From Dehalococcoidia bacterium (GTDB taxonomy: Bacteria > Chloroflexota > Dehalococcoidia > UBA2979): a stretch of DNA of 35,088 bases. Under the pieces are notes generated by a model. It worked only from the letters and a program-made list of their open reading frames with translations. It was not told the origin of the DNA and searched no databases. The position numbers were made by a program, and so were the translations under genes. Position 1 is the stretch's first letter. Every line of letters begins with the position of its first letter. This document shows positions 5,240-25,888 of the stretch, in pieces. Where the stretch lies: the NCBI GenBank assembly GCA_022451865.1, contig JAKUNM010000010.1, positions 1 to 35,088 on the forward strand, written 5' to 3'.

Positions 5240-7303
5240 TTATACTCGTGATCTTTTAGAAGACTGTTTTGTATCTTTCCGCATAGAAGAAAGTAAACTT
5301 AATCCTTGAAGTGAATCACTATCTGAAAGATCTCTGCGTAAATCTACTATTTGATCTCTGAGTATTGCTGCACGTTCAAAATCCAACTCTTTAGCAACTT
5401 TTCTCATTTGATTTTCGAGGTCATTAATAACACGTATTGCTTCATCTTTTGGTATATCAACGATCGAAATCGCATCTTTCTCACTATCAATAGCGAATGT
5501 TTGACGTAAATCATCATTGATATCACGTAAAGCCTTTTCGATACCTTGAGGAGTAATACCATGTTCTTGATTATGTTCATCTTGTATTAAGCGGCGCCGA
5601 TTAGTTTCATCAATGGCTGTTTGCATTGACTTTGTTACTACATCAGCATACATAATTATATTTCCTTTTGGATGGCGAGCTGCACGGCCTATAGTTTGAA
5701 TTAGTGCACCACTAGATCTTAAATAGCCTTCTTTATCTGCATCTAAAATGCAAATCAAAGAAACTTCTGGCAAATCTAAACCTTCGCGTAATAAATTTAT
5801 ACCAACTACAACATCATAAATCCCTGATCTTAAATCACGTAAAATTTCAATCCTTTCCAAAGTATCCACTTCAGAATGCAAATAGGTAGATTTGATACCC
5901 ATTTCTTGTAGATATTCATTAAGTTCTTCTGACATTTTCTTAGTAAGTGTAGTGATAAGGCAACGTTCGTTTTTTTTCTTACGCAGATTTATTTCACTTA
6001 ATAAATTATCAATTTGCCCGCTTGTCGGACGAACTTCAACTGTTGGGTCCAAGATTCCAGTTGGCCTAATGACCTGTTGAACTATATGTGATGAAACTGA
6101 AAATTCATATGGTCCAGGGGTAGCAGAGACAAATACAACTTGATTAATTCTATTTTGAAATTCATCAAAATTAAGAGGTCGGTTATCCAGAGCGGAAGGC
6201 AAGCGAAAGCCATGTTCAACTAATGTCCTCTTACGTGACATATCACCTTCATACATCCCGCGAGCTTGAGGTACTGACATATGAGATTCATCAATGACAA
6301 TCAACCAATCATCAGGAAAATAATCGAGCAACGTCCATGGTGTCGATCCAGGCTCACGTCCTGATAAATGACGTGAATAATTTTCAATTCCTGAACAATA
6401 TCCTGTTTCCTTAATTGTTTCTATATCATAACGTGTACGTTCTTCTAGTCTTTGAGCTTCAAGTAATTTGCCTCGGTCCTGAAATTTTTTTGCTTCGACG
6501 CTTAATTCGGTTTCTATAGATAATATTGCCTCCTGTAAACGTTCTTTTGAAGTAACAAAATGTTTTGCAGGATAAATAGATGTATCCTCAAATTCATTTA
6601 ATATTTCACCGCTCAATGGGTCGAGGGTTAAGATTTTTTCAATTTCATCTCCAAAAAAATCAACTCGAATAGCTAGATCATCATACGAAGGAAATATTGT
6701 TAATGAATCACCACGCACTCTAAAAGTTCCACGTAATGTATTCATATCATTCCGCGTATATTGCATTTCAACAAGCTGTCTTATCAAAGATGTACGGTTA
6801 ACATGCCTTCCTTTGAAAAGATTTAAAACAAAAGATTGATATTCACCCGGTTCACCTAAACCGTATATACAGGAGATAGAAGCAACAATAATGACATCCT
6901 GTCTTTCAAATAGTGCACGAGTTGCTGCATGACGCATTTTATCAATTTCATCATTAATATCTGCGTCTTTAGCAATATATGTATCTGTTCGAGGGATATA
7001 GGCTTCAGGTTGATAGTAGTCATAGTAAGAAACAAAATATTCGACAGCATTACTAGGGAAGAAATCTCTGAATTCTGCAACTAATTGCGCAGCTAACGTT
7101 CTATTAGGAGCTAATACAAGAGTAGGTTTTTGATAATTTTCAATTACATTTGCAATAGTAAATGTTTTCCCAGTACCTGTTGCTCCCAGTAATGTCATTG
7201 CAGATACATCATTATTTAATGCTCCAGTTATTTCCGTAACTGCCTGATTTTGATCACCCATCAACTTAAAATCACTAATAATTGAGAATTTATTATTCGA
7301 CAT
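5240..7303 (-). CDS. uvrB: Excinuclease ABC subunit B
   Basis: [55 protein letters not shown]-terminal UvrB/UvrC motif. Confidence 0.98.
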
Positions 7304-22596: not shown

Positions 22597-23361
22597 TTAA
22601 TTACTCAGTTGTAGAACTATATCGCCATTATCGTAACGGATCATTTCATGAGGAGGTAAAGTGTTAATCCAAACACTTGCTAAAGCGCGACCATTGCGAA
22701 CAACCAAACGCCAAGTATCATAAGTCCCTGCAGGCACTTTAACTAATTCTTTAGGAAAAATTCTAACGGACATACTATTAATTTCGTTATCCAGAACAAG
22801 TGATGCATTATAAGAAATCTCTGTGACTTCAGAAAAATTAAGGGTACGCCATAACCAGAATGAGGATTCATTATCGAAATAGTTTCCTATCAGATCCAAT
22901 GATTGATTTTCAGTTCCATCTTGGGTAGTTATCGTTGAATTGAGCTTTGGCAAATCTGGATTATTATCATAGATCCATTCATAGACATCATTTATTTGTT
23001 TTTTATCAAGGTTGACATGTGATATTTCCCTTAATCCCGCTAAAGGTTTAAGTGTTTGCGAATCAACGACCAATATTATTTCATCTGTTGCAAATTGATC
23101 TCTAGAAGATGAATATTTCTGTTCCAATACCAAACGTCCATCATTTATAAATGAAGATAAAAATCCGAAAGCAATTACATCCTCTTGAGAATTAATTATT
23201 TCATATTTATGCTGCTGATCATTTTCAAAAGGAATTTGATAAACAATTGGTTCATTAATTACATTGAGAAGGCTTGCTTGAGAATTATCACAACTTAAAA
23301 ATAGAAATAGACAAAGTACAGTTGAACTTATTAGAAGAGATAATGATTTTAGCTTAACCAA
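22597..23361 (-). CDS. Putative lipoprotein of unknown function
   Basis: N-terminal hydrophobic signal ending FLFLSCDN (lipobox-like Cys); overlaps the upstream aldolase gene by 8 nt. Confidence 0.7.
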   Translation of the reverse strand: MVKLKSLSLLISSTVLCLFLFLSCDNSQASLLNVINEPIVYQIPFENDQQHKYEIINSQEDVIAFGFLSSFINDGRLVLEQKYSSSRDQFATDEIILVVDSQTLKPLAGLREISHVNLDKKQINDVYEWIYDNNPDLPKLNSTITTQDGTENQSLDLIGNYFDNESSFWLWRTLNFSEVTEISYNASLVLDNEINSMSVRIFPKELVKVPAGTYDTWRLVVRNGRALASVWINTLPPHEMIRYDNGDIVLQLSN

Positions 23362-24397
23362 TCATATTCTCCGTCGTTTTTTGTACTTGTTCTATAACCA
23401 CATCAATTGATTCTTCAGGAATATCTAGATGTGTGACCATCCTAAGTGTATTAGGAACAGTTGAGCTAACAAGTATTCCATGATCAGCTAAATCATTTTG
23501 CAAAATGGCAACATCAATTTTTTCAGAGCTGATAAAAATCATATTTGTTTGTACTAAATTTAAATCTACATCAATTCCTGAAATTTGAGTCAACCCTTCA
23601 GCAAGGCGGCGAGCATTAATATGATCAATTCCAATCCGTTCAATATTATTCTCTAAAGCGAATAAAGCGGCTGCAGCAATAATCCCAGATTGTCGCATTG
23701 CACCTCCAACCTGGCGACGAATGGAACGTGCACTGCTAATAAATTCTTCTGAACCTGTCAACACAGAACCAACAGGTGCGCCCAACCCTTTAGAAAAACA
23801 AAAAGATAAAGTATCAGCATCTTGTACTAAGGAAGAAACGTCTGTTTCTAAAGCACAAGCAGCATTAAATATTCTAGCGCCATCAATATGTACAGACGCA
23901 CCTGCATTGTGAGCAATTCCAGCAATTTCAGTAATTTCGCTTTGAGGAATGACGGTACCACCACAACGATTTTGTGTGTTTTCTAAACACATAACTTTAG
24001 AAATAGACTTTTCAGATTTAAAATGAGATTCAATTTCATCGATATTCATACGACCATTTTTTTGATTACGCACTATACCTAAATGTATTCCACCAAGAGC
24101 TGGGGCTCCTAAGCCTTCATGGTGAAGGATATGTGATTCAGATCCAACAATAGCTTGATCACCTCTTCCGCAATGTGTCAAAAGTGCTATTAAATTAGCC
24201 ATTGTTCCACTAGGTACGAATAGGGCAGCTTGCTTGCCGACAACTTTTGCAGCCTTTGCCTCTAATAGTTTAACTGTGGGATCATCACCTAAAACATCAT
24301 CCCCTACTAAAGAATCCTTGATTATCTCTCGCATAGCTAACGAAGGACGACTGACAGTATCAGATCGTAAATCGATAACACTCATTTTTACCTCCAA
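23354..24397 (-). CDS. GntG-type PLP-dependent aldolase (low-specificity threonine aldolase family)
   Basis: IDLRSDTVSRPS, LFVPSGTMANLIAL, HIDGARIFNA, FCFSKGLGAPVGSVL, RRQVGGAMRQSGIIAAAAL; likely start at 24385 (MSVIDLRSD). Confidence 0.94.
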   Translation of the reverse strand: MEVKMSVIDLRSDTVSRPSLAMREIIKDSLVGDDVLGDDPTVKLLEAKAAKVVGKQAALFVPSGTMANLIALLTHCGRGDQAIVGSESHILHHEGLGAPALGGIHLGIVRNQKNGRMNIDEIESHFKSEKSISKVMCLENTQNRCGGTVIPQSEITEIAGIAHNAGASVHIDGARIFNAACALETDVSSLVQDADTLSFCFSKGLGAPVGSVLTGSEEFISSARSIRRQVGGAMRQSGIIAAAALFALENNIERIGIDHINARRLAEGLTQISGIDVDLNLVQTNMIFISSEKIDVAILQNDLADHGILVSSTVPNTLRMVTHLDIPEESIDVVIEQVQKTTENMIG

Positions 24398-24428: not shown

Positions 24429-24890
24429 TTAATTATCTTGCTTACGCTCCCAGATGGTTTCATAACCTTCACCACCAGAAATTGCCAATTGAATATCAAT
24501 TTTTTCTAATTGTAATGCTTCTTGATATATTAGTTTTGCATCATTAACAGCCTGTAACCCAGCACTTTCAAAAAAACGTTTTTCCAAAACTTGCCACAAA
24601 CCTAATATTCTTAACATTCTTATGCTCTGAGCCCAATGAAAAACAGTAATTTGAGTAGGTAATTCTAATTCAGGACGTGTTGTACGTAAATAACGATAAC
24701 GCTCTTCTGCAGAATTAGCAGGTGGAACTAAACGAATTAAGGGCATGTTATTTTCCCCTAAACGTGTATCCACTAAAAGCCTTTGGTGAATATGAGAAAA
24801 ACGAACCACAAAAACATCTGTAGTTTCTAAAACAATCTTAATAGCTTCAAAGTCAATCCCAGAATTGGACTCCATATACGTGACCCACAC
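24429..24890 (-). CDS. Hypothetical protein (about 150 aa)
   Basis: Uninterrupted ORF in a co-directional run of genes; no recognised domain. Possible internal start MESNSGIDFEAI. Confidence 0.65.
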   Translation of the reverse strand: MWVTYMESNSGIDFEAIKIVLETTDVFVVRFSHIHQRLLVDTRLGENNMPLIRLVPPANSAEERYRYLRTTRPELELPTQITVFHWAQSIRMLRILGLWQVLEKRFFESAGLQAVNDAKLIYQEALQLEKIDIQLAISGGEGYETIWERKQDN

Positions 24891-24897
24891 AAATTCC

Positions 24898-25665
24898 TTA
24901 AAAAATACGATAATCTCTATCCAGATAAGGAATCTTAATTATTCCTATCATTTGCAATCCAAAAAGTATTAACAATACCCCACCAATTCTAGTAAACAGA
25001 GGAATATTTTGCTGAATACTATTACCAACTAATCCAACTGATGCACCCAATAATGCAAATACTACACCAAATCCCAGAACAAACGAACAGGCATGTCGAA
25101 CAACTTGAGAACGTCTATTGAATGACAAATTATTATCGATAGCAGATTCTCCCGCAATATTTATTAAATATGCTGGAACCAATGGTAGTACACATGGAGA
25201 TAAAAATGACAATACCCCTCCTAAAAAAGCTATAAATGGTCCAAAAAAATTACTGGTATCCAAACTCAAATTACTTTCCATATCAAAAGTATTACTCAAT
25301 ATTGAACCATAGCCCATAAGATAATTATTTAATCGAGAAAATTCATTGAAAAACAATAACAGGCCCATCAAGATAAAAATAAATGCACCACTGATAGTAA
25401 TAATTCTTATTTTCGCCTGAGTATATCTTAATCTTGGCATTATCCATTCAAAAAAAAGTGCTATTAAGATAAACCAAATTCCCATACCCATTGCATATGA
25501 CAGTAATAAAATCCCTCCTTGAATAGCAGTCCCTGAAGTAGCAGCTAGGGTAAGTGCTACTCCCAGAATTGGCCCTACACACGGAGACCATGCCACTGCA
25601 AAAGTTACTCCAATGAGAAATGAACGCAAATACGAATTATTTTGAATACCCATTAGAAAAATCAC
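24898..25665 (-). CDS. ccdA: CcdA-like cytochrome c biogenesis/thiol-redox membrane protein with swapped (circularly permuted) halves
   Basis: Six predicted TMs; VTFAVAWSPCVGPILGVALTLAATSG (normally the second half) precedes FIAFLGGVLSFLSPCVLPLVPAYLINIAG (normally the first half). GTG start 25665 or ATG 25653. Confidence 0.85.
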   Translation of the reverse strand: MIFLMGIQNNSYLRSFLIGVTFAVAWSPCVGPILGVALTLAATSGTAIQGGILLLSYAMGMGIWFILIALFFEWIMPRLRYTQAKIRIITISGAFIFILMGLLLFFNEFSRLNNYLMGYGSILSNTFDMESNLSLDTSNFFGPFIAFLGGVLSFLSPCVLPLVPAYLINIAGESAIDNNLSFNRRSQVVRHACSFVLGFGVVFALLGASVGLVGNSIQQNIPLFTRIGGVLLILFGLQMIGIIKIPYLDRDYRIF

Positions 25666-25690: not shown

Positions 25691-25888
25691 TTAAGATTCT
25701 ATCCCAAGTATCTTCAATCTTAACATGTCATACTTTTCCTTGGCACGAGCTTCACGGCCCAACAGCCCTTTTATTTTATCTGGAGACATTTTTTTACCTT
25801 CAAGAAGTAATTCATGTAAATCTTGTAATTGCAATTGCCAATATGACAATGCTTCTAGATATTCAGTTTTTAATTCAGAGTCAATCAT
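25691..25888 (-). CDS. Small hypothetical protein (65 aa)
   Basis: ORF MIDSELKTEYLEALSYWQLQLQDLHELLLEGKKMSPDKIKGLLGREARAKEKYDMLRLKILGIES; helical, charged, co-directional. Confidence 0.55.
   Translation of the reverse strand: MIDSELKTEYLEALSYWQLQLQDLHELLLEGKKMSPDKIKGLLGREARAKEKYDMLRLKILGIES

Follow-up and report, generated by a model that had tools for sequence, protein, structure and literature searches.

The gene on the minus strand at positions 24898–25665 very probably encodes a working CcdA (DsbD family, thiol-disulfide electron carrier) in a naturally occurring, circularly permuted form; its electron transfer, its fold, and its route of origin we infer from sequence. The window, i.e., the whole stretch of DNA analysed, comprises 35,088 nucleotides of contig JAKUNM010000010.1 of a Dehalococcoidia bacterium (assembly GCA_022451865.1). 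Families (f), genomes (G), and loci (L) carry the codes of the genome search, in which the window's family is f1. The gene, its parts, and its neighbours are as follows.

22597–23361, minus strand: DUF3108 protein (7.5e-6), conserved neighbourhood
23354–24397, minus strand: threonine-aldolase-type lyase (Beta_elim_lyase, 2.4e-90), conserved neighbourhood
24429–24890, minus strand: conserved 153-aa gene immediately downstream of ccdA, no Pfam/NCBIfam match
24898–25665, minus strand: permuted ccdA, type A (TM4-5-6-1-2-3), 255 aa, single open frame
24904–25113, minus strand: TM2-3 (residues 185–254), new C-terminus, segment HMM 104 bits
25150–25248, minus strand: TM1 (residues 140–172), motif SFLSPCVLPLVPAYL, segment HMM 64 bits, matching 5VKV 7–93
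25192–25194, minus strand: codon of Cys158, the TM1 active-site cysteine, motif PC..P, conserved in all 41 type A proteins
25249–25302, minus strand: linker core from the old C-terminus to the old N-terminus, resembling a canonical C-terminus plus N-terminus
25303–25644, minus strand: TM4-5-6, the former second half (residues 8–121), redox motif WSPCVGP
25579–25581, minus strand: codon of Cys29, the TM4 active-site cysteine, motif W.PC.G, conserved in all 41 type A proteins
25691–25888, minus strand: conserved small gene of 65 aa, lying upstream of the permuted ccdA, no Pfam/NCBIfam match

Helix order of the window protein

The reading frame starts with a GTG at 25665, the alternative being an in-frame ATG at 25653, and its stop codon lies at 24898–24900. 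The Pfam model DsbD_TM scores 66.3 bits against the protein (cut-off 27.1) in two stretches, the best of which pairs protein residues 146–245 with profile positions 7–103. In the whole-genome scan with this model, profile positions 7–103 are found at 24931–25230 and positions 122–192 at 25429–25641, an order that is reversed in the reading direction. The segment HMMs place TM4 at residues 8–44 (74 bits) and TM5-6 at residues 45–121 (94 bits).

The same arrangement is obtained with the solved CcdA structure 5VKV, which the whole protein matches in phmmer with an E-value of 4.2e-30. The TM4-6 half (query 12–117) aligns with CcdA residues 110–211 (i-E 7.8e-15), and the TM1-3 half (query 145–242) with residues 7–93 (i-E 7.2e-14). 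When the halves are used as separate queries, the matches to the opposite pseudo-symmetric half reach only E ~0.1–0.4, far weaker than the assigned ones, and the identity of each half is therefore not in doubt. Local alignment of the unrotated protein with its canonical relatives spans one half only (109–116 aa), whereas after rotation 223–234 aa are aligned at 40–44% identity, the best rotation point in a scan along the protein being residue 132–141. From the swapped 5VKV matches and the rotation test, the order is TM4-5-6, linker, TM1-2-3 (type A). The protein aligns end to end when rotated, its linker joins the old ends, and its new ends lie in a loop; it does not have the canonical order with TM1 first. 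Because of the order 4-5-6-1-2-3, we class it as a permuted variant of CcdA/DsbD (PF02683) rather than as an ordinary member.

These results bear out the initial annotation, which had read the two halves as standing in reverse order with both active-site cysteines present (Cys29 and Cys158) and had proposed that each half be aligned separately with DsbD/CcdA, which indeed gives the swapped and not the canonical order. The linker, measured from the end of TM6 to the start of TM1, has about 33 residues (approximately 107–139) and is polar; it was described as free of lysine, which is correct, and it contains one arginine (R111).

Conservation in the family and gene neighbourhood

Permuted ccdA is the sole match in the window's own genome. 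Within f1, the permuted order is carried as one open frame by 37 of the 44 genomes, representing 17 genera, and no canonical-order ccdA was found in the 44; the remaining genomes are without a complete match, one of them having a fragment at a contig end. A second species of the window's genus (PANZ01000015.1) has a 91% identical copy, and dN/dS between the two species amounts to 0.08 for the whole gene and to 0.12 for its linker. The search in related genomes that had been suggested at the outset thus recovered the permuted order, and the canonical gene in close relatives that would have spoken against it is absent from f1. One such gene occurs at this neighbourhood in another family (G059, locus L035), which points to the route of origin and does not refute the permutation.

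This canonical gene of G059 (f25) has surroundings like those of the window, namely a 65-aa gene, ccdA, a 150-aa gene, threonine aldolase, and DUF3108. At a second locus, the type A gene of G065 (f31) is followed by tlpA, as in its canonical sisters, while at a third the type B gene of G039 (f5) has three neighbours in common with the canonical ccdA of G107 (a 563-aa gene, lgt, and a third gene).

The family of the small upstream gene is found 5' of permuted ccdA in f1 and f66 and 5' of canonical ccdA in f16 and f25. Its protein (65–94 aa, motif IKGLLNREARAKEKYD) precedes ccdA in several families, permuted or not. The downstream gene of about 150 aa lies 3' of permuted ccdA in f1 and 3' of canonical ccdA in G059, and its product carries the motif SAEERYRYLR...ITVFHW. 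A scan for promoters and terminators performed no better than on shuffled sequences.

Permuted forms in the phylum

About 720 genomes of the phylum (Chloroflexota) were surveyed, the helix order being read with separate models for TM1, TM2-3, TM4, and TM5-6. Within the class, permuted and canonical proteins were told apart by a profile spanning TM4-6, the linker, and TM1, of which permuted matches cover positions 3–171 with about 158 bits or more, whereas canonical matches end near position 116–131 with 138 bits or less. Outside f1, type A occurs in three families (f31, f50, and f66). A different order, type B (2-3-4-5-6-1), in which the cysteine helix TM1 comes last, is found in seven families, f20 and f5 in the class and f121, f122, f151, f160, and f161 elsewhere in the phylum. 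Permuted ccdA thus recurs in about eleven families, which goes beyond what the initial annotation covered; in most families, and likewise in the structures that have been solved, the canonical order is the rule. Neither active-site motif is missing from any of the 67 permuted proteins of this set (41 of type A, 26 of type B).

With a second profile, no cuts in the TM4-5 or TM5-6 loop were found in 400 genomes of the phylum; among the matches listed, only the known type A proteins span the linker. Since cuts were found only in the TM1-2 and TM3-4 loops, all those observed lie in cytoplasmic loops. Outside the phylum, matches were obtained in 267 plasmid records, in none of which they extended over 80% of the linker-spanning query.

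Three further observations concern individual loci. The type B proteins of L126 (3007–4143) and L130 (3602–4660), which represent two families, have an insertion of about 110 residues in the TM3-4 loop, rich in hydrophobic stretches. Genome G250 has both a permuted and a canonical ccdA (L115, 747–1673, and L154, 3201–4031), and tlpA follows the canonical one only. Near the canonical ccdA of L046, a second, divergent CcdA-like frame (6329–7225, minus strand) gives weak TM1 and TM2-3 matches.

Topology, linker, and fold

In type A, type B, and canonical proteins, the mean number of Lys and Arg residues is 2–5 in loops 1-2, 3-4, and 5-6 or in the matching new ends, the C-terminal tail of type B having a mean of 1.0, and it is at most about 1.5 in loops 2-3 and 4-5 and in the linker. 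As this pattern is common to the permuted and canonical forms, the helices appear to keep their orientation, which would place the new ends in the cytoplasm. The reading of the positive-inside pattern as that of a permuted protein with cytoplasmic termini, put forward in the initial annotation, agrees with these counts. The linker has a length of 27–38 aa in type A (41 proteins) and type B. An AlphaFold model of the window protein, from an alignment of two sequences only (the window protein and that of L031), has a pLDDT of 45, too low for a confident structure; the fold would presumably be that of canonical CcdA.

Two explanations in which no permutation would have taken place can be considered here. 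An artefact of assembly or binning, such as collapsed tandem ccdA copies, could be suspected from the mostly draft state of the genomes searched and from the 88 contigs of the window's assembly. However, 37 genomes from 17 genera show this order in an uninterrupted reading frame, on contigs of up to several hundred kb, the gene is under purifying selection (dN/dS 0.08) with a conserved linker length, and the permuted order occurs in other families too. Misassembly, which had been named at the outset as a possible refutation, is rejected on these grounds, and we give an artefact practically no chance. Since CcdA consists of two inverted repeats (PMC7329351), one could also imagine that the pseudo-symmetric halves exchanged their signatures in place by gene conversion, with the topology unchanged. 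Yet the Lys and Arg residues move with each helix, giving the inverted orientation at the ends that a permutation demands, and the new linker of about 30 aa sits where the old termini would join; as for type B, where the cut lies in the TM1-2 loop, exchanging the halves could not produce its order at all. Such an exchange is exceedingly improbable, and we retain the circular permutation.

Origin of the permuted genes

The permuted gene would have formed in three steps, in which ccdA was duplicated in tandem, the two copies were fused in frame, and TM1-3 of the first copy and TM4-6 of the second were lost. The polar linker, some 30 residues long, would thereby have come to bridge the two old termini, the C-terminus following TM6 and the N-terminus preceding TM1, which both lie outside the membrane, while the new break in the chain would fall within the cytoplasmic TM3-TM4 loop. 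Both ends would then be cytoplasmic, with the orientation of each helix unchanged. The f1 linker (LNNYF..LGFFF...LTSGVHGLFGPGIAFF) resembles the C-terminus (FNSYFDHFGRL) followed by the N-terminus (SIDGLFGPFVAF) of the canonical protein of L035. This resemblance and the shared neighbours at the three loci described above make an origin in place by tandem duplication, fusion, and trimming likely. Among the loci fetched, neither a fused tandem nor an intermediate with 9–12 helices was found.

The number of origins was addressed with a tree built on the helices rearranged to canonical order, the window protein included. Permuted and canonical genes are interleaved on the trees, and the three helix orders require seven changes on the best one. 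On the tree with the window protein, the tests reject a single clade both for type A (p = 0.0003) and for type B (p = 0.011); for all permuted genes together, rejection (p = 0.0002) was obtained on the earlier tree without it only. The type A genes of f1 and f50/f66 as one clade are not rejected with the window protein (p = 0.11), the value without it being 0.043, and their linkers have the common pattern T..AE..L..G. For these two reasons, we can safely count no fewer than two origins per type, provided that the canonical order is ancestral and that the tree model is adequate. We therefore consider it on balance probable that CcdA was permuted repeatedly in this one phylum, with at least two origins for each cut point, each in place by duplication, fusion, and trimming and always in a cytoplasmic loop (TM1-2 or TM3-4).

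Two other histories would lead to the same gene order. The permuted gene may be a chimera, in which a second-half gene became fused to the first-half gene of a different ccdA paralogue. The top canonical relatives of the two halves differ in f1, where the agreement between halves in three proteins is rho 0.30–0.47, with no clear single canonical sister (canonical control: mean 0.59, range 0.09–0.84), and a canonical and a permuted gene do coexist in G250. In f50/f66 and f31, however, the nearest canonical relatives of one half are also those of the other (rho 0.75–0.81), and synteny points to a change in place. We consider a chimera very unlikely, and it would still join the end of ccdA to its start, yielding the same permuted fold. 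Alternatively, the permuted order may be old, descending from a single fused tandem gene, and the canonical order may have been restored from it several times. The interleaving of the two kinds of genes would fit such a history, as would the similar linkers of f1 and f50/f66 and the single origin of their type A genes, which is not rejected (p = 0.11). Against it stand the three rejections of a single clade, the prevalence of the canonical order in most families and in the solved structures, and the lack of a fused intermediate among the loci fetched; an old permuted order thus appears unlikely, and repeated permutation of a canonical ancestor is preferred.

Function and redox partner

CcdA carries reducing equivalents outward, and an elevator-like motion of TM1 and TM4 has been proposed in which the other helices act as a scaffold (PMC7329351). 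The scaffold of CcdA is described as O-shaped. In the permuted protein, TM1 and TM4, with one cysteine each, would likewise relay the reducing equivalents that cytoplasmic thioredoxin supplies, the acceptors being exported thioredoxin-like proteins of the CcmG/TlpA type, whose electrons would then serve cytochrome c maturation. Permuted ccdA is adjoined by tlpA in L112, L126, and L138 and by a Cytochrom_C_asm gene in L126, L130, and L135–L137. Since some permuted genes are located beside tlpA or cytochrome c assembly genes, the function is probably the same as that of the canonical protein.

CcmF/CcmC-type genes, accompanied at close range by a thioredoxin-like gene, occur in other, larger genomes of f1. 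In the window's genus (G000 and G001, genomes 84–94% complete), c-type cytochrome domains and DsbA-like proteins are present, and no tlpA/ccmG and no CcmF/CcmC-type or ResB gene was found.

Relation to known systems

Permuted CcdA is by its parts a CcdA and by their order, as far as the open-access literature shows, apparently new. It has the six helices, the two cysteine motifs, a similar length, and the loop charges of the canonical protein (PDB 5VKV and 2N4X; PF02683), together with the same neighbours (tlpA and cytochrome assembly genes) in some genomes. It differs in having the order 4-5-6-1-2-3 or 2-3-4-5-6-1 instead of 1-2-3-4-5-6, in the new TM6-TM1 linker, and in its ends, which, judging from the charges, are cytoplasmic and not outside.

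Natural circular permutation is well known among soluble domains. For multi-helix membrane proteins, we found one open-access report, on the deep DsbB/VKOR pair (ABCD vs CDAB), for which duplication and deletion were proposed as the route and whose authors present it as the first such case among polytopic helical membrane proteins, having found none reported before (PMC4555120). This pair is the nearest precedent, no report of a permuted CcdA or DsbD having been found in the open-access literature. In both cases, a thiol-redox helical membrane fold is related by circular permutation. However, DsbB and VKOR are 12–14% identical, from an ancient inferred event, whereas permuted and canonical CcdA are about 40–65% identical, and the CcdA permutations are recurrent, fall at two cut points, and lie in neighbourhoods that canonical genes also have. 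The circularly permuted GTPases (YlqF/YRG; cpRAS, PMC2430557) are alike in that one fold has more than one natural permutation, but these are soluble domains, free of the constraint of membrane topology.

The canonical and the two permuted orders of CcdA coexist as clear homologues, at times in one neighbourhood and once in one genome (G250). This set makes it possible to test how much re-threading the topology of a membrane protein can bear, whether helices enter the membrane singly or in pairs, and what connections the CcdA elevator cannot do without. It is also a warning for annotation, as order-dependent profiles split or under-score the permuted genes. If the present reading is true, natural circular permutation has recurred in a polytopic helical membrane protein and can be observed among close relatives; evolution would have re-cut a six-helix membrane protein repeatedly while apparently keeping the protein in use.
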